Shown here piece by piece: positions 7,618-18,448 of a stretch of DNA of 64,000 bases. Position numbers and translations under genes: made by a program. The stretch lies in assembly GCA_020444545.1 (NCBI GenBank), contig JAHLKT010000002.1, forward strand, positions 526,870-590,869. The letters run 5' to 3'. The stretch is from Desulfarculaceae bacterium. GTDB taxonomy: Bacteria > Desulfobacterota > Desulfarculia > Desulfarculales > Desulfarculaceae. The notes beneath the pieces are model-generated. The model saw nothing but the letters and a program-made list of their open reading frames with translations. It ran no database searches and was not told where the DNA came from. The first letter of the stretch is position 1; every line of letters starts with the position of its first letter.

Positions 7618-8139
7618 CTAGGCGGCGGCCAGGTGGTCCTTGATGGCGTGGGCGGTGGAAACGTAGCCCAGCTCGTCCCAGGGCAGCTCCCCGGGCGCAA
7701 ACACCTTGATCTCTAGCGCCTCGCGTCCGGCCACCACCTCGCCTCCCACTGGCCGGGCGGCGTATACCACCAGCACCCAGGGGTTGCCCTCGTAGGAATA
7801 GACCCCCACCAGGCGGGTCAGCTCCACCTCCAGGCCGGTCTCCTCGGCCACCTCGCGCACCCCGGCAGCGGTGACCACCTCTCCCCGGTCCACGTGGCCG
7901 CCGGGGAGGATCCATTTGCCGTGGGCCTGGTCGCGCTGGGCCCGGCGCAAGAGCAAGATGCCCTCGCCGTTTTCCACGATCACCGCCACGGCCACCTTGG
8001 GGTCCTCGTAAACCGGCGCGTCGCAGCCGGTGCAGTAGAAGGGCGCGCCGCCAGGGTTAAGGCCGCCGGCCACGGCCAGCTTGCCGCCGCAGAGCGCGCA
8101 GAATCGGGGGGTGAAGACCGGGGTCAAGGCTAATCGCAC
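7618..8139 (-). CDS. Nudix hydrolase with N-terminal zinc ribbon
   Basis: A 173-residue protein. A four-Cys zinc ribbon (CALCGG at about 13 and CTGC at about 36) is followed by a Nudix fold. The Nudix box, at about residues 83-105, matches GX5EX7REUXEEXGU perfectly (G-HVDRG-E, then REVAEETGL). It hydrolyses some nucleoside diphosphate linked to X; the substrate cannot be read from sequence. The SQPWPFPxS signature of NADH pyrophosphatases is absent. The GTG start overlaps the end of the upstream response-regulator gene by 10 bp, suggesting translational coupling at the tail of the chemosensory cluster, though functional linkage is unproven. Confidence 0.85.
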   Translation of the reverse strand: MRLALTPVFTPRFCALCGGKLAVAGGLNPGGAPFYCTGCDAPVYEDPKVAVAVIVENGEGILLLRRAQRDQAHGKWILPGGHVDRGEVVTAAGVREVAEETGLEVELTRLVGVYSYEGNPWVLVVYAARPVGGEVVAGREALEIKVFAPGELPWDELGYVSTAHAIKDHLAAA

Positions 8140-8999
8140 CCCGCCACGGGCTCCTGCCGCTTAATCAGGGTCACCTCGTTGCCCGACTCGTTGTAGATCA
8201 CCTGATCCATGATGGACTTGATCAAAAACACCCCGCGCCCCCGTTCGGAGAGCAGGCGCTCGTTGGCCGTGGGGTTGAGCACGCTGTGATGGTCAAAGCC
8301 TTCGCCCTCGTCGCGGATGGTTACCTGGATCTCGCCGCTGGTGATCTCGGCGGTCACCCGGATCTGCTTGTCCTGGTCCCAGCGGTTCCCGTGCTCCATG
8401 GCGTTGGTCACCGCCTCCACCAGGGCCAGCTTCAGGTGGTTGTCCAGGTCCGGCCGGGCGAAGCCCACCGCCACCGCCGACAGGGCCAGCTGGTAGACCA
8501 CCTCTTGCACGCACTCCGGACGGCTGGGGGCCTCCATGCGGGTCTGCTGCCAGATGGTGGGCAGGGCGCATCCCCGGGGCTGGATGCTGGCCAGGGACAG
8601 GCTCTGCTCCACCACGTGCTCCAGGGCGTCTAGGTCCAGGGGCTTGGCCAAAAAGTTCTCGGCTCCGGCCTTGAGGGCCTGCACCACGGTCTCGGCCTCG
8701 CCGTAGCCGCTGATCACCACCACCGGCAGGCGGGGGTTCAGGTCCTTGGCCGCCTTTAATAGCTGCAAGCCGTCGAGATACGGCATGCGCACGTCGGTGA
8801 TGAGCAGGTCGAACTCGTGGGCGCGCAGGTGGTCCAAAGCCTGCTTGCCGTCGGCCGCCGCGACGACCCGGTAGCCCTTGTCCTCCAGGCAGCGGCGCAG
8901 GAGCTCGGTCATCAGCTTTTCGTCATCAGCCACCAGTATCCTGGCGTCGGCGGGCCGGTGAGTCGAGGAGTCGGATGGTTGAACTGAAGGTGGCTTCAT
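8130..8999 (-). CDS. Response regulator with RsbW/SpoIIAB-type HATPase output
   Basis: A 289-residue protein: a REC domain (about 20-135, phospho-acceptor D69 in LLITDVRMPYLDG, acidic pair ADDE) joined to a C-terminal GHKL ATPase of the anti-sigma/serine-kinase class. The N-box is ALVEAVTNAMEHGN near residue 200, followed by RDEGEGFD and ERGRGVFLIKSIMD. There is no His-kinase dimerisation domain, so the output is expected to be a Rsb-like serine kinase or anti-sigma switch. The ATG at 8999 overlaps the upstream PP2C gene stop by 4 bp. It likely acts opposite to that phosphatase on the STAS proteins of the same cluster. Confidence 0.88.
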   Translation of the reverse strand: MKPPSVQPSDSSTHRPADARILVADDEKLMTELLRRCLEDKGYRVVAAADGKQALDHLRAHEFDLLITDVRMPYLDGLQLLKAAKDLNPRLPVVVISGYGEAETVVQALKAGAENFLAKPLDLDALEHVVEQSLSLASIQPRGCALPTIWQQTRMEAPSRPECVQEVVYQLALSAVAVGFARPDLDNHLKLALVEAVTNAMEHGNRWDQDKQIRVTAEITSGEIQVTIRDEGEGFDHHSVLNPTANERLLSERGRGVFLIKSIMDQVIYNESGNEVTLIKRQEPVAGCD

Positions 9000-10177
9000 T
9001 GGAAATCCATGACGATCAAAGCCATGTCGTCGCTGTGATCGCCCCGCGAGAAATTCTCCAGCTGCATTTGCAGCCGGTCCACGAAATCCTGGGGAGGCAG
9101 GTCTCTGGCCGCTTGGGCCATGCGTTCCAGGCCTCCTATGCCCAGGGGCCTTCCCTGGGCGTCCTCGGCCTCGGTGCACCCGTCGGTGTACAGGAGCAGG
9201 CGATAGCCGGGCCCCAGCTCGGTCCGGGTATCCTTAAAGCTTACCAAGGGCGGCTCTTGCGAGAAAACCCCCAGCAGAAAACCGGGGTTGCTCAGGCGCA
9301 TCGCCGGCCCCGAGGGAGGCAGGCACAGGGGAGGGGGGTGCCCGGCCGAGCACCAGGTAAGGCGGCGGCCGGGGTGGTAGAGCCCCAAAAAGGCGGTGAC
9401 GTAGCGGTCCTCCTCGGTGAGGCTCACTAGGTCCTGGTTCAAGGCGGCCAAAGCTTCCGCCGGGGAGTAGGTGCGCTCCAGGTAGCCGGGCAAAAGGGCC
9501 TTGAGAATGCTGGCGGTCATGGCCGAGGCCACGCCGTGGCCGGCTACGTCGGCCACCACCACGCCCAGGTCGCCGCTGGGCAGGGGGAAGAAATCGAAGT
9601 AGTCGCCGCCCAGTTCCTGGCAGGGTTTGAATAGCCAGGCCGCCTCCACCCCAGGGGCTTGCAGGGGGGCGGGGAGCAGGAAGTTCTGGTAGCGGGCGGC
9701 CATGGCCAGCTCCCGGCTCATGTGCTGGTTGGCCCGGCGCACCTGGGAAATCATGCGCCGCGCGTTCACCGCGTTGCGCACCTTCAGGGGCAATACCAGC
9801 TTCAGCTCGCGCCCCCTCAGCGGTTTGATGAAATAGTCGTAACAGTCCATGCTCAGGGCTTCGGAAAGCGAGTCCAGGTCGTCCAGGGAGCTGTTGACGA
9901 TCACCGGAATGTCCCGGGCCACCTCATTTTCCAGGCGCCAGCGCAGGAAGGCAAAGCCGTCCATCACCGGCATCATCAGGTCCAGGAGGATCAGGTCCAC
10001 CCCGGCCCCGGATTGTAGGGTGTCCACCGCCTGGCGGCCGTCTTCGCATTCGATGAAGTGGTAATCGCCCCGGGAGGTGAGGGCGGAGATCAACAGCTCC
10101 CGGTTCAGCCGGGAGTCGTCCACCACCATGATCGCCGCCTTGGGTTCCCAGTGGTCTTGCCGCCAATGATGACTCAT
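8996..10177 (-). CDS. Response regulator with RsbU/SpoIIE-type PP2C phosphatase output
   Basis: A 393-residue protein. The N-terminal REC domain (about 14-130, acceptor D66 in LILLDLMMPVMDG) and a short helical linker (about 140-165) precede a PP2C-like SpoIIE domain (about 170-390). That domain carries the metal-binding motifs GGDYFDFF, VVADVAGHGVAS, LLLYTDGCTEA and a terminal DDMALIV. Such proteins dephosphorylate STAS anti-anti-sigma factors when the receiver is phosphorylated. The ATG at 10177 overlaps the cheB stop (ATGA); the frame upstream to 10207 is less likely. It sits inside the chemosensory operon, so CheA is a plausible phosphodonor. Confidence 0.9.
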   Translation of the reverse strand: MSHHWRQDHWEPKAAIMVVDDSRLNRELLISALTSRGDYHFIECEDGRQAVDTLQSGAGVDLILLDLMMPVMDGFAFLRWRLENEVARDIPVIVNSSLDDLDSLSEALSMDCYDYFIKPLRGRELKLVLPLKVRNAVNARRMISQVRRANQHMSRELAMAARYQNFLLPAPLQAPGVEAAWLFKPCQELGGDYFDFFPLPSGDLGVVVADVAGHGVASAMTASILKALLPGYLERTYSPAEALAALNQDLVSLTEEDRYVTAFLGLYHPGRRLTWCSAGHPPPLCLPPSGPAMRLSNPGFLLGVFSQEPPLVSFKDTRTELGPGYRLLLYTDGCTEAEDAQGRPLGIGGLERMAQAARDLPPQDFVDRLQMQLENFSRGDHSDDMALIVMDFQ

Positions 10178-11241
10178 TTGTCCGCTCCCGTGCGCGCCTG
10201 GCGCCACAGCCTTTCCATGATCGGGGCCAAGCGCTCCAGGGGCAACACCAGGTCGGCCGATCCCCCTTCCACCACCGCCCGGGCCATGCCGTAGATGACC
10301 GAGCTGGCTTCGTCCTGGGCCAGGATCAGAGACCCGGCCCGGCGCATCTCGGCGGCTCCCAGCGCGCCGTCGCTGCCCATGCCGGTCATGATTATACCAA
10401 CCGCCGCTGGGCCCGCGCTGGCCGCGGCTGACCGGAACAGGACATCCACCGAGGGTTTGTGATGATTGACCAGGGGGCCGTCCTTGACTCGGACATAGTA
10501 GCCGTGCAGACCCTTTTCCAATAAGAGATGGCGGCCTCCCGGCGCGATGAGCGCCCAGCCCGGCTCCAGGGGCTGGTAGTCCTCGGCCTGGGCCACGCTG
10601 ACCGCGCAGTTTTGGTTGAGGCGGGCGGCAAAGGGCCCGGTGAACTGGGCGGGCAGGTGCTGCACGATGGCCAGGGGAGGGCTGTCGGCCGGCAGGCCGG
10701 CCAGCAGGCGCTCCAGGGCCACGGTGCCCCCGGTGGAGGCCCCGATGGCCACCACCATGGCCGGCGTGGGGCGATAGCGCGAGGTTGCGGGCAGGGCAAC
10801 TGCTTGGGGCGCGGCGGACGCGGATGGCAGCTTAAGCCGGGCCCGCGCGGCGGCGCGCACCTTGGAAACGATCTCCAGGCCCAGCTCGGGCAGGCGCTCC
10901 TGGAGGTTGGCGGTGGGCTTGCTCACCACCTCCACCGCGCCCAGGCTCAGGGCCTTGAGGGTGGCCTCGGCCCCCTGCTGGGTGGTCTTGGAGAACATCA
11001 CCACAGGCATGGGCCGGGAGGCCATCAGCTTTTCCAGGAAGGTCAGCCCGTCCATGCGGGGCATCTCGATGTCCAGGGTCAATACGTCGGGATCGAGCTT
11101 GATTATCTTGTCCCGGGCGAAGTAAGGGTCCGCCGCCGCTCCCACCACCACCATATCCGGCTCGGCCTCGAGCAGGGAGCGCAGATACTCCCTGATCATG
11201 GCCGAGTCGTCGATGATGAGCACCTTGATGGGTTGGGTCAT
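10174..11241 (-). CDS. cheB: Chemotaxis protein-glutamate methylesterase/glutamine deamidase CheB
   Basis: A 355-residue two-domain CheB. The receiver has acceptor D57 (VLTLDIEMPRMDG). The C-terminal methylesterase domain carries the catalytic Ser in IGASTGGT, His in VQHLPAQFT and Asp in MTGMGSDGA. CheB demethylates chemoreceptors and feeds back on CheA activity. It lies in the operon between cheD (31 bp upstream) and the PP2C response regulator (4-bp overlap). No receptor gene is present locally, so its targets must be encoded elsewhere. Confidence 0.95.
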   Translation of the reverse strand: MTQPIKVLIIDDSAMIREYLRSLLEAEPDMVVVGAAADPYFARDKIIKLDPDVLTLDIEMPRMDGLTFLEKLMASRPMPVVMFSKTTQQGAEATLKALSLGAVEVVSKPTANLQERLPELGLEIVSKVRAAARARLKLPSASAAPQAVALPATSRYRPTPAMVVAIGASTGGTVALERLLAGLPADSPPLAIVQHLPAQFTGPFAARLNQNCAVSVAQAEDYQPLEPGWALIAPGGRHLLLEKGLHGYYVRVKDGPLVNHHKPSVDVLFRSAAASAGPAAVGIIMTGMGSDGALGAAEMRRAGSLILAQDEASSVIYGMARAVVEGGSADLVLPLERLAPIMERLWRQARTGADK

Positions 11242-11272
11242 GTGTTTCCGCCTCTTTCGGCCGGGGCAGGCT

Positions 11273-11866
11273 TCAATCGTCGAAAACGGTCAGGTCCTCC
11301 GCGCGGGAGGCCTTGCGGGCCCGGCGGCGGAAGTCCTCTTCCTGTTCCAGCGCCTCCTGCCCCAGGGGCTGGGCCAGGCGCTTGATAAAGGCCTGGCCGC
11401 TATGGGGCAGATAAAACACCTTGCGTCCGCAGTTGCCCCCCACGTCGTAGGACGCCAGAGGGATGTTCTCCAGGGACAAGAAACGCCGCACGAAATCCAG
11501 GTTGGCCTGGGGCACGCTGCGCGCGCAAGAGGGCGCCGCGGGCAACACGTGGCCTCCGCCAAAGACCTTGGCCTCCAAATGATCCCGTCCGCCGCCCGCC
11601 TTGATGATCCCGCCGATCACCAGCTCCATGGCGTACATGCCGTAGCGGGCGCTGGCCGAGGCCTTGGCGCCGGGCAGGGCGCCGCTGCTTTCCGGCAGCA
11701 TGAAGTGGTTCATGCCCCCGATGCCCAGACTGGCATCGCGGATGCACACCGACACGCAGGAGCCCAGGATGGTGCTTATCACCTCGTCGCTCCTCGTTAC
11801 ATAATACTCTCCCGCCTGGATGGTGATCAGGGGGCGCGAAAAGCGCGGCGAGTATTGGCGCAGCAT
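11273..11866 (-). CDS. cheD: Chemoreceptor glutamine deamidase CheD
   Basis: A 197-residue CheD-family protein with the catalytic Cys and His in TILGSCVSVCIRDASLGIGG and GGMNHFMLP. A second conserved stretch is AKVFGGGHVLP. CheD deamidates receptor glutamines and in some bacteria modulates CheC. There is no CheC here, but CheB and CheR flank it. It ends with a charged tail (about 165-197) beyond the usual 160-170-residue core. The ATG at 11866 lies 6 bp after the cheR stop. Confidence 0.93.
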   Translation of the reverse strand: MLRQYSPRFSRPLITIQAGEYYVTRSDEVISTILGSCVSVCIRDASLGIGGMNHFMLPESSGALPGAKASASARYGMYAMELVIGGIIKAGGGRDHLEAKVFGGGHVLPAAPSCARSVPQANLDFVRRFLSLENIPLASYDVGGNCGRKVFYLPHSGQAFIKRLAQPLGQEALEQEEDFRRRARKASRAEDLTVFDD

Positions 11867-11872
11867 GACGAT

Positions 11873-12748
11873 CTATCGCTTCCGGTAAACCGTGGGGCCC
11901 ACGCAGGCGAAGCGCCCGGCATCGGAGAGCAGGGATTCGGAATGGCCCAGGAACAACCAGCCCCCCGGCTTGAGGGCGGCGCTCAGCCGTTCCACGATGG
12001 CCGCCTTGTCCTCGGCCTCGAAGTAAATGAGCACGTTGCGGCAAAAGATGAGATCCAGTGAGGCGGCGCGGGGGTAGGGCGCGCCCATGAGGTTCATCTT
12101 GCCGAAGACGATCATCTGGCGCAGCTCGGGCCGGGCCTGGAAATGGGGCCCGCCGGGCTCGCGCAGCCGGGCGAAATGCTTGAGCAGCAAATGGCGGGGC
12201 AGGCGCTCGGTTTCCAGCCGGCCGTAGATTCCCTGGCTGGCCCGGCGCAGCAGGGCGGTGTGCAGGTCCGTGGCCAAAACCCGGGCCGACCAGCCCGGAC
12301 GCAAGGCCAGGAACTCGGACAGGGTGATGGCCAGGGAGTAGGCCTCTTCGCCCGAGGAGCATCCGGCCGACCAGGCCCGCAGGGCGCGGGGAGGGCCCGT
12401 GGCGGTCAGGGAGGGCAGCGCCGTCTGGCGCAGGAAATCGAAGTGGTGCCCCTCGCGGAAGAAGCCGGTCTGGTTGGTGGTGATCTGGTTGATCATCTGC
12501 ACCAGCTCGTCCTCGCCTGCGGCCGATTGGAGCAGGGCCACGTACTGGGTGAAGTTGGCCAGGCCCAAGGCGCGCAAGCGGCGGCTCAGGCGGCTGATCA
12601 CCAGGTCCTGCTTGTTGGGCCCCAAGGTTATGCCCGTGCGCTGCTTGACCAAGTCGCGGATGGCCGTGAAGTCGGAAGCGCGCAAGGGAAAGGGGCCCAG
12701 GGGAGGGGCCTGGGGGGCGCGGGAGGGGCGGTTGGGTTCAGGAGGCAT
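11873..12748 (-). CDS. cheR: Chemotaxis protein methyltransferase CheR
   Basis: A 291-residue CheR. The N-terminal all-alpha domain (about 20-90, with RTGITLGPNKQDLVISRLSR) is followed by a class I SAM methyltransferase domain. Motif I is LRAWSAGCSSGEEAYSLAIT, and the segment DLIFCRNVLIYF is diagnostic for CheR. It methylates receptor glutamates, opposite CheB. The ATG at 12748 overlaps the 3' end of the HPt-CheW fusion gene by 11 bp, so translation is probably coupled. There is no TPR extension of the kind found in some non-flagellar systems. Confidence 0.95.
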   Translation of the reverse strand: MPPEPNRPSRAPQAPPLGPFPLRASDFTAIRDLVKQRTGITLGPNKQDLVISRLSRRLRALGLANFTQYVALLQSAAGEDELVQMINQITTNQTGFFREGHHFDFLRQTALPSLTATGPPRALRAWSAGCSSGEEAYSLAITLSEFLALRPGWSARVLATDLHTALLRRASQGIYGRLETERLPRHLLLKHFARLREPGGPHFQARPELRQMIVFGKMNLMGAPYPRAASLDLIFCRNVLIYFEAEDKAAIVERLSAALKPGGWLFLGHSESLLSDAGRFACVGPTVYRKR

Positions 12749-14048
12749 GGCGCATCGCCTCCGTGCCCAGCAGGCCGGCCAGATCCACCAGGATGACCAG
12801 GCGCGAATCGTGCTCCACCAGGCCCCGCAGGTGTTCGCGGCCCACCGGCCCGGCCATGTCCGGGGCCTCCTGCATGGTCTCCTCGGGCACGGCCACCACC
12901 TCGCGCACCATGTCCACCACCACGCCTTGCAGCTTGCCTTCCAGGCGCGCCAGCACCACCACCGGCTCGGCGCTCTGGTCGTGGGGCAGCCCCAGCAGGC
13001 GGCGCAGATCGAACACCGGCACCACCGCGCCCCTGAGGTTCATCACCCCCAGCACGTGGGCCGGGCTCAAGGGCAGGGCGGTGATGGGGGGCAGGGTGAA
13101 GATCTCCCGCACCATCCCCACCTCCACGGCGTAGGTCTCCGGCCCCAGGTCGAACACCAGGTATTGCGGGACCGGCCCTTCCACCGGGGCGGGCAGGCCG
13201 GCTTCCGGCTCGCGCGAGGCGGGCGCATCCGGGGCCCGGGGCGTGGCCTCTTGCCGGACGGGCATTGCCTGGGCATCCAGGGGGGCGTCCTCTTCGGCGG
13301 GCCCGGCTTGGGGCCGCTCCAGGGCGGCCAGACCGTGGCCCAGCTCCTCCGGCCCCAGCGGGCGCAGGCTCTCCCGGGGCAGGGACATCACGTCGCACAG
13401 GGGCCCGGCTTCCAGGGCCGAGGCGTAGAGCAGGGCCAGATCCTGGTCTTCGATTTGGGCGCAGGCCAGCAGGTCGCCCAGGGTGAGCAGCTCGCCCAGG
13501 CTGGTGTACAGGGACTGGGCGGGCACTTGGCCGCCGCCGGGCAGGGTCAGGCAATACAGACACACGCCCGGGGGCTGGTGCTCTAAGAGCCAGGGGCTGA
13601 TCCCCCAGGCCGCGCCGGGACGGCCGGGCACGGCCAAGCTCTGGGGCCGCAGACGGGCCAGGTCCTGGCCGGGCAGGCCCGCCCCCAGGGCCGCCTCCAA
13701 AGCGCGCAGGGCCCCGGCGGTCTCCACATGCTCCAGCTCCTCCAGGCGGGCGAACATGGCGGCCAAAACGTCGGCTGCTTGCAATAGGGCGTCGGTGAGG
13801 TGCTGGCGGGGCTCCAGCCCACCCCCGGCCACCAGGCGCAGGGCCGCCTCCATGCCCCCGGCCAGGCGCTCCATGGGCTCGCAGCCGGCCAGGGCCGCGC
13901 CGCCGCGCACCGCGTGCACCGCGCGCAAGACGCTGTGCCCCGCCTCGCTCACCTGCTCGCCGCGCTCCAGGGCCAAAAGGCCCTGCTCCACCTCGGCCAA
14001 CAGGGCCGGGGAGTCGGCGGCCATCAGGCGCAGCAGGCCGCGCCGCAT
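12738..14048 (-). CDS. HPt-like / CheA-P2-like / CheW fusion protein
   Basis: A 436-residue protein. The N-terminal HPt-like helical bundle (about 1-125) has a candidate phospho-histidine H45 in AVHAVRGGAALAG, against HTMKGNAG in the neighbouring CheA. The middle region (about 150-240) resembles the alpha/beta segment that follows HPt in that CheA. A low-complexity linker leads to a C-terminal CheW domain (about 292-430, with VFDLGPETYAVEVGMVREIF and PVFDLRRLLGLP). This looks like the cluster's only CheW, carrying its own HPt domain. It has no kinase domain. The ATG at 14048 abuts the cheA stop. I do not know a standard name for this architecture. Confidence 0.85.
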   Translation of the reverse strand: MRRGLLRLMAADSPALLAEVEQGLLALERGEQVSEAGHSVLRAVHAVRGGAALAGCEPMERLAGGMEAALRLVAGGGLEPRQHLTDALLQAADVLAAMFARLEELEHVETAGALRALEAALGAGLPGQDLARLRPQSLAVPGRPGAAWGISPWLLEHQPPGVCLYCLTLPGGGQVPAQSLYTSLGELLTLGDLLACAQIEDQDLALLYASALEAGPLCDVMSLPRESLRPLGPEELGHGLAALERPQAGPAEEDAPLDAQAMPVRQEATPRAPDAPASREPEAGLPAPVEGPVPQYLVFDLGPETYAVEVGMVREIFTLPPITALPLSPAHVLGVMNLRGAVVPVFDLRRLLGLPHDQSAEPVVVLARLEGKLQGVVVDMVREVVAVPEETMQEAPDMAGPVGREHLRGLVEHDSRLVILVDLAGLLGTEAMRHAS

Positions 14049-16063
14049 CAGTGGGCCTCTCCCGTCTCCAGGGACATCTTCTCCAGGCTGGGCACATCCA
14101 GCACCAGGCCCACCCGGCCGTCGGCCAGGATGGTGGCCCCGCCGATGCCCGGCACCTTCTGGTAGTTCTGCTCGATGGATTTGATCACCGCCTGGCGCTC
14201 GCCCAGGATGTCGTCCACCAGCAGGCCGAAGCGCTTGCCCAGGCTGCCGATGATCATCACCAGGCCCTCGCAGGGGTCTTCCACCCCGCCTTCAAGGCAA
14301 AACAGGCGGGCCAGGCGCACCAGGGGAAGGTAGCCCTCGCGGTGCCGGATCAGCTCGCCCTTGCCGCGCACCGTGCGCAGCTGGTCGGGCCGGGGCTTCA
14401 TGGATTCCACGATGGAGAGCATGGGCAAGACAAAGGTCTCGCCGGCCACCTTCACGTTCATGCCGTCGATGATGGCCAGGGTCAGGGGCAGCTTGATGCG
14501 GAAGGTGGCCCCCAGCCCAGGGGAGGAATCCACCTCCACCGAGCCGCGCAGGGACTCGATGTTCTCGCGCACCACGTCCAGGCCCACCCCCCGGCCGGAA
14601 AGCTCGGTGACTTGGCTGGCGGTGGAGAATCCGGGGTGGAACAGAAGCTCGTGAATCTCTTCCGGGCCGGGCCGGGCATCCGGCGGGATGAGCCCCAGGG
14701 CCTCGGCCCGCTGGCGCACCTGCTCCGCGTCGACGCCCCGGCCGTCGTCGGCCACCTCTATGAAGATGCGCCCGCCCTGCTGATAGGCCCTCAGCCAGAT
14801 GGTGCCCTCGGCGGGCTTGCCCGCGGCCCGCCGCTCCTCGGGCGCCTCCAGGCCGTGGACCGCCGCGTTGCGCACCAGGTGCCCCAGGGGATCGGCCATC
14901 TGCTCGGCCACGTTCTTGTCCAGCTCGGTGTCCAGGCCGCTCAGCTCCAGGCGGATGTCCTTGCCCAGCTCGGCGGCCAGGTCGCGCACCATGCGGCGGA
15001 AGCGGTTGAAGGTGCCCTCCACCGGCACCATGCGCACCCGCATCACCTGCTGCTGCATCTCCCGGCTGATGCGGCCCATGGACTCCAGGGCGCTTTGCAA
15101 CTCCGGCGCGGCATAGGGACCCACCCCCTCGCTCACCCGGCCCAGGCCGATGACCATCTCGCCCACCAGGTTGATCAGCTTGTCCAGCTTCCCGGTGTCC
15201 ACCCGGATGGTGGGCGCGGCCATGGGCACGGAGCGGGGCGCTGGGCTGGGGGGGGAGGCCTTGGGCGCTGCGGGCTCGGCTGGGGCTTGGCGAGCGGCGG
15301 GCGCCTGGGCCCGGCTCGGCCGCTCCGGGGCCTGATTGGCCGGGGCCTCGCCGCTGGGCCGCACCGTTATCTCGCCCTCGTCGCGCACGAAGATGAAGAC
15401 GTTCTCCACCGTGCTGATGGGGTGCCCGGTGAGCAGCCACAGTTCCCACCACAGGTAAAGCTGGAAGGGGTCCAGGCCGGCGAAGGGCGGCAGCTGTTCG
15501 CTGTGGCACACCACCCGCTCCACCTGGCCCAGCTCCTCCAGCTCCAGAAAAAGCTGCATGGGGTCGGTGCCCATGGTGAATACGTGGCGGGGCAGCTTGA
15601 TGCTCAGGTGCAGGCGCTGGCGCCCGCCGGACTGGGCGGGCAGGGCGGCCGGAGCCGGGGCGGGGCGCGCCGGGCGCGGCGGAGGGGGCGAGCCCTGGTC
15701 CAGGAGAGGGGCCAGCTCACTGAGCAGCTCGTCGGCGGGCCGGGGCCCTTGGCCCTCCATGCGGGCCTGGATCATGCCCTTAAGTTGGTCCGTGGCCTTG
15801 AGCAGCTGGCCCATGACCGGGCCGCCGGGCTCCCGGGAGCCCTGACGCATCTGGTCCAGCACCCCCTCCATGAGATGGGTCAGCTCCACCACCTCCTCGA
15901 AGCCCACGATACCCGCGTTGCCCTTCATGGTGTGGGCCGCGCGGAACACGGTGTTGACCTTCTCGGGGTCCGGACCCCTCTCCAAGGCCAACAGGCCCTC
16001 CTCCAGGGCCTCGATGATCTCCTGCGCCTCTTCCGCGAATATCTCTAGGAGCTTGTCGTCCAA
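14048..16063 (-). CDS. cheA: Chemotaxis histidine kinase CheA
   Basis: A 671-residue CheA. HPt domain with phospho-histidine H44 (RAAHTMKGNAG); a P2-like domain (about 150-245) and a Pro/Ala-rich linker; dimerisation domain (TGKLDKLINLVGEMVIGLGR). The HATPase has N-box HLVRNAAVHG and the G-box VADDGRGVD, and the C-terminal CheW-like P5 domain follows. It should phosphorylate CheY, CheB and probably the two REC proteins downstream. The start is a TTG with GAGGT 7 bp upstream; no ATG fits. It is preceded by cheY by 10 bp. Confidence 0.95.
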   Translation of the reverse strand: MDDKLLEIFAEEAQEIIEALEEGLLALERGPDPEKVNTVFRAAHTMKGNAGIVGFEEVVELTHLMEGVLDQMRQGSREPGGPVMGQLLKATDQLKGMIQARMEGQGPRPADELLSELAPLLDQGSPPPPRPARPAPAPAALPAQSGGRQRLHLSIKLPRHVFTMGTDPMQLFLELEELGQVERVVCHSEQLPPFAGLDPFQLYLWWELWLLTGHPISTVENVFIFVRDEGEITVRPSGEAPANQAPERPSRAQAPAARQAPAEPAAPKASPPSPAPRSVPMAAPTIRVDTGKLDKLINLVGEMVIGLGRVSEGVGPYAAPELQSALESMGRISREMQQQVMRVRMVPVEGTFNRFRRMVRDLAAELGKDIRLELSGLDTELDKNVAEQMADPLGHLVRNAAVHGLEAPEERRAAGKPAEGTIWLRAYQQGGRIFIEVADDGRGVDAEQVRQRAEALGLIPPDARPGPEEIHELLFHPGFSTASQVTELSGRGVGLDVVRENIESLRGSVEVDSSPGLGATFRIKLPLTLAIIDGMNVKVAGETFVLPMLSIVESMKPRPDQLRTVRGKGELIRHREGYLPLVRLARLFCLEGGVEDPCEGLVMIIGSLGKRFGLLVDDILGERQAVIKSIEQNYQKVPGIGGATILADGRVGLVLDVPSLEKMSLETGEAH

Positions 16064-16073
16064 CGCCGCTACC

Positions 16074-16481
16074 TCAAGCCAGGGTGCGGGTGAACTTTTT
16101 GACCACGGTGAGCAGAGTCTGGGGTTGGAAGGGCTTGACCAGCCAGCCCGAAGCGCCGGCCTCTCTGCCCGCCAACTTGCGCTCCGCCTCGTTTTCGGTG
16201 GTCAATACCAGGATCGGCAGGAACTTGAAGGGAGTCTTTTTCACCTCGCGGATAAAGGAGATGCCGTCCAGGCGGGGCATGTTCACGTCGCTGATGATCA
16301 TGGCCGGCGAGCGCCCCTGGCCTTGCAGCCCGGCCAGGGCCTCCAACCCATCCTGACCGTCGGCCGCCTCCATCACCTGATAGCCGGCGGGCTCCAGCAC
16401 CGCGCGCACCGACATGCGCAGGGTGGCCGAGTCGTCCACCAGCAGGATGAGGCGGCGGTCTTCGGCGGGCTGGGCAGGCAT
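16074..16481 (-). CDS. cheY: CheY-type single-domain response regulator
   Basis: About 135 residues of receiver domain and nothing else. Acidic pair LVDDS, acceptor Asp in MIISDVNMPRLDG, the switch Thr in LVLTTENE, and Lys in LVKPFQ. Two starts are possible: GTG at 16490, which overlaps the upstream STAS stop (GTGA), or ATG at 16481, which has GGAG at 8 bp. I prefer 16481. In flagellar systems CheY binds the motor switch; with no flagellar genes here its output may instead be as a phosphate sink or another partner. Confidence 0.92.
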   Translation of the reverse strand: MPAQPAEDRRLILLVDDSATLRMSVRAVLEPAGYQVMEAADGQDGLEALAGLQGQGRSPAMIISDVNMPRLDGISFIREVKKTPFKFLPILVLTTENEAERKLAGREAGASGWLVKPFQPQTLLTVVKKFTRTLA

Positions 16482-16486
16482 GGGGC

Positions 16487-16777
16487 TCACTCCAGGTAGG
16501 GGGCCAGGTTCCGGTTAAGGCCGGACAGCTCCAGGGCGCGCTCCACCACCCCGGGCAATCCGGCGAGCACGGCCCGGGGACAAGCGTCGTCTTGCAGCCA
16601 GGCGGTAAGCAGTTGCAACCCGGCCAGGTCCACCTCGCGCACCTGGGACAGGTCCAGCCGCACGGGCGGGGCCTGGCTCATGGCCGATTCCAGGGCCTCG
16701 CGCAGGATGTCCAAGTACTGCACCCTCAGCTGTCCGCTGAGGGACAACTGGCCGTTGTTGAATTGGTAATCCAGCAA
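16487..16777 (-). CDS. STAS-domain protein of the chemosensory cluster (non-canonical phosphosite)
   Basis: A 96-residue STAS domain (LSLSGQLRVQYLDILREAL, then VREVDLAGLQLLTAWL). In SpoIIAA/RsbV proteins a Ser or Thr follows the Asp of this last motif; here the positions are Leu-Ala. A serine switch of the usual kind is therefore not evident. Proteins of this AGLQLL type are often encoded in chemosensory operons. The start is TTG with only a weak ribosome binding site, 18 bp after the upstream STAS gene; the exact start is uncertain. Function is inferred from fold and location. Confidence 0.8.
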   Translation of the reverse strand: MLDYQFNNGQLSLSGQLRVQYLDILREALESAMSQAPPVRLDLSQVREVDLAGLQLLTAWLQDDACPRAVLAGLPGVVERALELSGLNRNLAPYLE

Positions 16778-16795
16778 AAGGACGCCGCCGGGTCG

Positions 16796-17107
16796 TCAGG
16801 CCGCCGGGGAGAGCTTGAAGATCTTGTCCAGCTTGACCACCTTGAACATGGTGTAGATGTCCTTGGAGAGGTTGTCGATGCGGACCTCGCCGCCGTGCGG
16901 CACCAGGTTTTTGTAGAGCAGCAGCAGCTTGCCGATGCCCGAACTGCCGATAAAGGTCACCCCGCTGAAGTCCAGGATGATTTCATTGAGCGAAGATAAA
17001 TCCAGATCCAAAAAGCGCCGCTTCATCTCTTCCGCGCCGCGTTCGTCGATGTTGCCCGCGATCTCGATGCGCGCCTTGTCGTCTTGTGGAATTACCTTGA
17101 ATTCCAT
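16796..17107 (-). CDS. STAS-domain anti-sigma-factor-antagonist-like protein
   Basis: A 103-residue STAS protein. The core motif ILDFSGVTFIGSSGIGKLL keeps the Ser pair (S55/S56) at the phosphorylation position, though the preceding Asp is Gly. It is the best candidate substrate for the PP2C response regulator and the HATPase response regulator of the same cluster. The ATG at 17107 has AGGAG 5 bp upstream and homologues start with MEFKV-like sequence; the frame continues to 17122. It is the first gene of the leftward chemosensory run. Confidence 0.88.
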   Translation of the reverse strand: MEFKVIPQDDKARIEIAGNIDERGAEEMKRRFLDLDLSSLNEIILDFSGVTFIGSSGIGKLLLLYKNLVPHGGEVRIDNLSKDIYTMFKVVKLDKIFKLSPAA

Positions 17108-17260
17108 TGGTGCTCCTAGCAAGCCTGGTGAGGTGCCATACCACGGACCTGTATGGGCAGGGCTTGAATTCCGAGCTACAGCTTAACAAAGCCCGCAAGG
17201 GGGCGCAATGAAAAATGATTAGGATTAAGGTGGGCTTAGCTCGCCGGCCCATGAGGAGTT

Positions 17261-18448
17261 TCAGGGGGCTTTGCGTGTCAAGCCGGGCAGGGTGATGGAA
17301 ATCTCCATGTCTTGGCCTTGGCGGCGCAAAAGATAGCGGTGGGGCTGGTGGGGCGCGGCCTTGATGGCGTCGTGGATGCCCTTGGGCGTGGTCAGCTTCT
17401 TGCCGTCCACGGCCAGGAGCAGGTCGCCTTTTTTAACCCCCGCCTTGGCCGCCGGGCTTTCCGGGAACACGCCCACCACCTCCAGGCCCTCGGGCTTCAC
17501 CTTAAGGAACACGCCCAAGCGCGGCCTGGGGCGCGGGCCGGGGGTGGAAACCGCCAGGATGTCCGCCGCCGGAGTCCCCGGCGCGGAGACCATGGCCGAG
17601 GCCGCCATGGGGCTCACCGGCAGCACGCCGATCAGTTTGACCCCGGGCAAGCGACGGGCGATGCGCGGGGGCAGGCCCAGCCCGGCGCTCAGGTGCCCGG
17701 CTCCGGCCAAGACCAGGCCTCGCTTGCCCCCATCGGGCCAGGGGTAGAGCCGTTTGGCCAGGTTGTTGGCCATGGTCTCGTCGCGCACCACCTGGGCCGC
17801 GAAAAAATTCTCCTGGGCCGTGGGGTTCTTTACCCCGTGGAAGGCGAACTGGCGGGCCACCTTGGCGCGGTAGTCGGGGTCGTCCAGGTCCAGGGACGGC
17901 GCGATGGCCGCGCGCTGCTCCGGGCTAAGGGACTTGAGCCCGTGCTTGGCCACCGAGCGCACGATCTCCAGCGGCGCGTTGAGGGCCACCAGCACGTGGC
18001 CCTTGGCCCGCACCTCGGCGAAGATGGGTGCGAACATCTTCCAGGGCTGGCTCCAGGCGTTGTCCCAGTCCACCTCTTGGCGGAACTGGTCTACCGTGAT
18101 CTTGCCCGCGCTCAAACGGTCGCAGGCGGGCTGGGCGCTCTGTTCCAGCCACTCCACGCCCAGCACCAGCGGGCCCTGGGCTCCCAGGCGTTTGAGCATG
18201 TCGAGTTGTATCTGGTGATGGCCGGGATGGTCGTGGCGCTCGCCCACCAGGACCACCCGGGCTTGGTCCAGGCGCTCATTGAGCCGCGCCTGGCTAAGTG
18301 GCTTGGGGGCCGGCGGGGCCAGGAAGTCGCCGGGCTTGTAGGCCGGCGCGGCCGGGGCCTCGGGCGTTGGCCCCACCCCGGCGCAGCCCGTGGCCAGGCC
18401 CAGCCCGGCCAGGGCCAAGAGCAAAAACGCGGCGCGCAGACGGGGCAA
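17261..18448 (-). CDS. ChaN-like (DUF399) lipoprotein with C-terminal PDZ domain
   Basis: A 395-residue predicted lipoprotein: signal peptide with lipobox-like LATGC (C22), a ChaN/haem-binding-type domain (about 45-280), and a PDZ domain (about 300-390). The ChaN domain has VVLVGERHDHPGHHQ and LVLGVEWLEQSAQ near its start and AGAGHLSAGLG near its end, the His/Glu pattern shared by the ChaN/TIKI/erythromycin-esterase superfamily. The PDZ domain contains GVFPESPAAKAGVKKGDLLL. The family role (iron/haem handling or metal-dependent hydrolysis) is unsettled. The TTG start has GGGGG 5 bp upstream. The M23 peptidase gene lies 9 bp upstream, so both are probably cotranscribed. Confidence 0.85.
   Translation of the reverse strand: MPRLRAAFLLLALAGLGLATGCAGVGPTPEAPAAPAYKPGDFLAPPAPKPLSQARLNERLDQARVVLVGERHDHPGHHQIQLDMLKRLGAQGPLVLGVEWLEQSAQPACDRLSAGKITVDQFRQEVDWDNAWSQPWKMFAPIFAEVRAKGHVLVALNAPLEIVRSVAKHGLKSLSPEQRAAIAPSLDLDDPDYRAKVARQFAFHGVKNPTAQENFFAAQVVRDETMANNLAKRLYPWPDGGKRGLVLAGAGHLSAGLGLPPRIARRLPGVKLIGVLPVSPMAASAMVSAPGTPAADILAVSTPGPRPRPRLGVFLKVKPEGLEVVGVFPESPAAKAGVKKGDLLLAVDGKKLTTPKGIHDAIKAAPHQPHRYLLRRQGQDMEISITLPGLTRKAP

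Follow-up and report, generated by a model that had tools for sequence, protein, structure and literature searches.

A chemosensory gene set joined to a STAS partner switch in Desulfarculaceae: natural deletions separate the modules and point to a probable CZB receptor

What might a complete set of chemosensory genes control when it shares an operon with the enzymes of a STAS partner switch? The question is raised by ten genes that run in one direction on the minus strand, from 17107 to 8130, of a 64-kb window of a Desulfarculaceae bacterium (assembly GCA_020444545.1, contig JAHLKT010000002.1, positions 526,870 to 590,869). A preliminary description had proposed that this tight leftward run merges a che gene set, including the methylation enzymes CheR, CheD and CheB, with a partner-switching module. 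The genes, domains and overlaps were confirmed, Pfam and NCBIfam backed every assignment, and the catalytic residues were found to be intact. The junctions, from STAS1 to the gene for REC-HATPase (a receiver domain, REC, joined to an RsbW-type kinase domain), measure +18, -4, +10, -1, -11, +6, +31, -4 and -4 bp, so that five of nine overlap (by 4, 1, 11, 4 and 4 bp) and the widest gap is 31 bp. The reading that we favour, with modest confidence, is that the operon encodes a chemosensory pathway resembling F7 that acts through a CrsR/CrsA-type (HsbR/HsbA-type) partner switch, the enzymes of which are divided between two proteins.

The ten-gene order was kept in other Desulfarculaceae genera as far as their contigs reach, at protein identities of about 30-80%, which argues that the arrangement is not due to chance. 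Within the genus, eight genomes were compared, the source genome (G000, 4.38 Mb) and other members G001-G007. The full gene set was present in G000, G001, G004 and G005. The slot that these genomes share, between a ChaN-like/PDZ gene and a NUDIX-hisD pair, held only STAS1, REC-PP2C (the receiver-phosphatase) and REC-HATPase in G006 and G007, with STAS2 and everything from cheY to cheB missing, and was reduced to STAS1 and REC-HATPase in G002 and G003. A tree built from five flanking and core genes separated G002 and G003 from the clade of G004, G005, G006 and G007 (both nodes 100), indicating two or more separate losses of the che block; the node that bears on single versus separate loss in G006 and G007 had a support of 56. 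From these natural losses, STAS1, REC-PP2C and REC-HATPase emerge as a module that can stand apart from the che block plugged into it. The irreducible core is STAS1 plus REC-HATPase, and STAS2 was lost together with the che block. A further genome with a rearranged locus, G011, was left out of this series because its relatives of cheA and HPt-CheW (a histidine phosphotransfer domain joined to CheW) lie on another contig. There, STAS1, cheR and REC-PP2C are found together (loci L047, L177, L180), cheA and a CheW fusion that has no recognisable HPt are located on a different contig, and the REC domain of REC-HATPase lacks the phospho-Asp.

The preliminary description had reported that no receptor is present, which is true of the operon and not of the genome. 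The genome search that it recommended returned three methyl-accepting chemotaxis proteins (MCPs). Two of them sit in a complete Wsp-like operon (L150, G000 C4:575000-594900) with the order CheW, CheR-TPR, CheW, MCP, MCP, CheA-REC, CheB, REC-GGDEF; each arm of their hairpins has an insertion of 14 residues. The signalling domains of these two receptors are near-identical, and beyond the Wsp-like operon come genes for a further response regulator and for a hybrid kinase. The third, unlinked MCP (G000 C1:284833-286968; L149:6834-8969) is a CZB receptor, in which a PF13682 domain (9.5e-11) lies between two membrane segments predicted from the sequence. Its hairpin aligned to that of E. coli Tar with no gap around the tip, which places it with the 36H-type receptors. 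Its C-terminus reads GFEEF, and FEEF is likewise the terminal motif of the receptors encoded within the related clusters of G129, G093 and G115. The CZB domain is of the periplasmic type, with the motif CxYGxWY in place of Cx(L/F)GxW(Y/L); periplasmic-type CZBs are reported to make up about 4% of CZBs (PMC8262984).

The CZB receptor was found in exactly the four full-cluster genomes and was missing from G002, G003, G006 and G007 (4/4 vs 0/4; Fisher p = 0.029, for eight genomes and with kinship ignored). In G002 and G006 a small open reading frame, the NAGPA gene and ftsZ are contiguous and the receptor site is empty; in G007 the receptor is also missing beside NAGPA, and in G003 contig ends block the check for an empty site. 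Because all four che-less relatives are also without this gene, three of them with an empty site, we infer that it is probably the receptor for the CheA of the operon.

Ser55 of STAS1 (motif GS[SA]G) was invariant in 12 family members and was also kept in G002 and G003. The equivalent position of STAS2 is Leu, and Leu, Thr, Ile or Met within the family; it varies as much in STAS proteins encoded next to cheA elsewhere, with Ser in Aeromonas, Ala in Xanthomonas and Leu in Methylosinus. The two STAS proteins of the preliminary description are thus both present and not equivalent, and only STAS1, with its Ser, would be a plausible phospho-switch. STAS2 looks like an accessory of the type of Sinorhizobium CheS, a CheA-binding STAS protein (PMC12654446): both consist of a STAS domain only and are encoded beside cheY/cheA, a likeness by analogy, with orthology unproven. 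In REC-PP2C the acidic metal-binding motifs and the REC Asp were conserved; in REC-HATPase the N-box residues E195 and N199 were invariant and the receiver residues intact. REC-HATPase was also the only strong HATPase_c_2 match in the source genome (94.8 bits vs 33.7 for the next).

His44 in the P1 domain of CheA was invariant. Residues 1-200 of HPt-CheW matched the N-terminus of CheA (hhalign probability 99.7%). Its motif HSIKGGA is canonical in other genera and eroded within the source genus, where the His is retained and the Lys/Gly motif is degraded in G001, G004 and G005. This protein resembles a kinase-less CheA of Rhodobacter sphaeroides, where CheA3 (P1-P5) has Hpt and CheW with no kinase domain and works with CheA4 (PMC10782961); here a complete CheA adjoins and the linker is much shorter. 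Two genomes of other genera encode CheA paralogues that consist of H-kinase_dim, HATPase and CheW domains only and lack P1 (L181:8463-9761 in G015, L163:8744-9982 in G009). They are about 60% identical to the operon CheA, and the G015 copy adjoins an MCP. Such paralogues would depend on an HPt supplied in trans, perhaps that of HPt-CheW, whose HPt is canonical in those genera.

The merger itself is not new: the joining of a chemosensory pathway to a STAS partner switch is already known. In stage-1 F7 clusters of Vibrio and Methylomicrobium, the order is STAS, cheY, cheA, cheW, cheR, cheD, cheB, STAS and a gene for a serine phosphatase (PMC7184735). In Shewanella, Che1 has a link to CrsR/CrsA, the switch that acts on RpoS (PMC9855816). 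The role of stage 1 and 2 F7 systems has been described as unclear (PMC7184735). The Desulfarculaceae operon shares with the stage-1 type (Vibrio cluster III, Methylomicrobium alcaliphilum) the order from STAS to cheB and the presence of a STAS and a serine phosphatase. It differs in that it has no linked receptors and so departs from the stage-1 order, has one HPt-CheW instead of CheW genes, is headed by STAS1, and divides phosphatase and kinase between two REC proteins. Outside the family, the G129 and G093 clusters keep this order but place a receptor gene after cheA and before cheW, and their last gene encodes a phosphatase in one chain, which in G129 is HATPase-PP2C. The Vibrio chromid cluster (L264) ends in a STAS and a fused REC-PP2C-HATPase protein. 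The pseudo-REC/HATPase/PP2C protein of G129 (L164:11446-13608) has the C-terminus GGFVEF, like the receptor tail that tethers CheR and CheB. In a phylogeny of CheA, CheB and CheR, the operon grouped with G129, G093 and G115, beside the Vibrio chromid and E. coli F7 clusters and apart from those of Aeromonas and Xanthomonas (root support 0.55).

On the switch side, CrsR/CrsA of Shewanella and HsbR/HsbA of Pseudomonas likewise place a REC-controlled PP2C and an RsbW-like kinase on a STAS protein, and CrsR/CrsA is likewise encoded with chemosensory genes, in the che1 locus (PMC9855816). The operon has the whole CrsR/CrsA domain set (REC, PP2C, RsbW-like and a phosphorylatable STAS with the invariant Ser55). 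CrsR and HsbR are each one three-domain protein, whereas the operon encodes two proteins of two domains each, both with a REC of their own; and the target of CrsR/CrsA is RpoS, whereas the source genome has no confirmed RpoS. The same split enzymes occur in Nitrospira moscoviensis beside STAS and chemosensory genes (L237: cheB, cheW, MCP, STAS, STAS, REC-PP2C, REC-HATPase), but that locus adjoins motA/motB-like genes, its sequences are distant, and the stretch examined has no complete che set. Among the listed REC-HATPase matches from about 85,000 species genomes (planctomycetes, spirochaetes and others), only those of Nitrospira lay beside che genes. No exact account of the split-enzyme variant was found in the open-access literature. 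What is new is the splitting of the enzymes, the HPt-CheW fusion and a receptor encoded outside the operon.

In the favoured mechanism, the CZB receptor, CheA and HPt-CheW would form the signalling unit, and CheR, CheD and CheB would tune the receptor. Phosphorylated CheA would serve as donor to CheY, to CheB and to the receivers of both switch enzymes, and these receivers would set the balance of kinase (REC-HATPase) against phosphatase (REC-PP2C) on Ser55 of STAS1. Unphosphorylated STAS1 would bind REC-HATPase and so free the bound target, most likely a 360-aa group-2 sigma factor, and STAS2 would act as a CheS-like accessory of CheA. That CheA phosphorylates the receivers of both STAS1-modifying enzymes is the most economical reading. 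Gene content, motifs, conservation, the deletion series and the joint loss of receptor and che block were observed directly; from them we infer all of the phosphotransfers, the direction of the switch and the sigma target. Several points count against the mechanism. The receptor pairing draws on those same eight genomes, the phylogeny is compatible with F7 but weakly rooted, and the group-2 sigma occurs in relatives both with and without the che block, which makes its co-occurrence uninformative on a role as target. In addition, the REC Asp sites of both output proteins were kept under purifying selection in the che-less relatives G006 and G007 (REC-HATPase, G006 vs G007: dN 0.081 in the REC and 0.173 in the catalytic domain), and no CheA match was found in G006. 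The RECs of G006 and G007 must therefore have other donors. CheA as the only REC donor was considered and rejected: the relaxed selection that it predicts after che loss was not seen in G007 and was at most slight in the REC-PP2C of G006. The preliminary description had CheA as the phosphodonor; as a general rule it cannot be the sole one. CheA is probably one REC input among others, and the RECs of the source genome may be fed by another donor too.

The same selection on the RECs lends weight to a different wiring, in which other histidine kinases are the main drivers of the switch and the che block, though co-transcribed, talks to CheY only and is tied to the switch by shared expression alone. 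The REC of REC-HATPase also matched NtrC/AtoC-type receivers best, and in Pseudomonas the input to HsbR comes from HptB and not from CheA (PMC6482189). We nevertheless consider this wiring unlikely: the same gene association recurs in the clusters of other families and in Vibrio, the genes overlap tightly, and CheY lacks any flagellar or PilT-driven target here, which leaves the switch as the obvious output. An ordinary motility cluster, to which the complete che gene set would be suited, is extremely improbable. FliG was missing in all eight genus genomes and PilT was not above cut-off at the genus level, and the cluster persists nonetheless; the bacterium thus appears to be non-motile and the output is unlikely to be motility, and the absence of motility genes noted beside the operon extends to the whole genome for FliG and PilT. 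It is also very unlikely that the operon is a decaying relic, as the repeated che losses and the eroding HPt of HPt-CheW could suggest, given that the reading frames and all other catalytic residues are intact and that CheA is 75% identical between G000 and G001.

The target could also differ while the wiring stays the same. We consider it rather unlikely, though credible, that STAS1/REC-HATPase acts on another STAS-bound protein, e.g. a diguanylate cyclase, as documented for HsbA-HsbD and SiaC-SiaD (PMC6482189, PMC9239204). The suggested search for sigma factors yielded four of the sigma-70 family in the source genome (RpoD, RpoH, one extracytoplasmic function factor and the 360-aa group-2 protein), with no RpoS above the NCBIfam cut-off. 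None of the four is of the SigB, SigF or FliA type and no sigma gene is linked to the operon, two absences that favour a non-sigma target. Against it, REC-HATPase retains the RsbW-type fold, of which the genome has no other strong example, and the nearest precedents bind RpoS. By analogy with CrsR and RpoS, the 360-aa protein (RpoD_Cterm 302 bits, RpoS 253 bits) would be the best candidate target of the switch.

Coordinates are collected in the table. A sole putative sigma-70-type promoter, TTGCGC-N17-TAAGCT, probably serves the operon. Most members of the genus, both those that have the che block and those that lack it, carry a recognisable version 5′ of STAS1, reading TTGCGC-N17-TAAGCT in G001 and TTGC..-N17-TATAGA in G004, G006 and G007. 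It falls below the threshold of a generic promoter scan, which gave no match at the operon head; a generic terminator scan gave matches at chance level, and a search of the 64-kb window for RNA families, tRNAs and long repeats found nothing relevant. The NUDIX gene overlaps the 3′ end of the operon by 10 bp and is followed by hisD. This gene (7618-8139) and the upstream ChaN-like/PDZ lipoprotein gene (17261-18448) were in place at every deletion stage in the genus.

Table. Features of the operon and its 3′ neighbour (positions in the 64-kb window)
Feature	Position	Strand	Evidence
Putative sigma-70-type operon promoter, TTGCGC-N17-TAAGCT	17180..17208	-	comparison across genus members only
STAS1, anti-sigma-factor-antagonist-like, predicted switch protein	16796..17107	-	PF01740 1.4e-13, TIGR00377 3e-14
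STAS2, predicted CheS-like accessory	16487..16777	-	PF13466 2e-14
CheY	16074..16490	-	PF00072 2.7e-24; catalytic residues conserved
CheA	14048..16063	-	Pfam P1, P3, P4, P5; P2-like region between
HPt-CheW: CheA-like P1, P2-like region and CheW, no kinase domain	12738..14048	-	PF01584 1e-33, PF01627 9e-6
CheR methyltransferase	11873..12748	-	PF01739 1.2e-54
CheD deamidase	11273..11866	-	PF03975 4.3e-24
CheB (REC and methylesterase)	10174..11241	-	PF01339 8.3e-60; NCBIfam PRK00742 above cut-off
REC-PP2C (SpoIIE-type phosphatase), ATGA overlap with cheB	8996..10177	-	PF07228 1.2e-45 and PF00072
REC-HATPase_c_2 (RsbW/SpoIIAB-type kinase/anti-sigma fold), ATGA overlap with REC-PP2C	8130..8999	-	PF13581 3.3e-26
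NUDIX hydrolase, conserved neighbour, outside the proposed mechanism	7618..8139	-	named from sequence; synteny

In this genus without FliG or PilT, the che block has thus been lost at least twice while the switch was kept, and the genomes that lack the block all lack the CZB receptor. The deletion series separates the modules without genetics and names a likely receptor of the CZB type, making the link from a chemoreceptor to a STAS switch directly testable. It is possible, and we propose it only tentatively, that a zinc/redox-type receptor with methylation adaptation here acts on a sigma factor by way of two antagonists, a kinase and a phosphatase, each with a receiver fed by CheA. If true, this would be an adapting, two-armed transcriptional switch.

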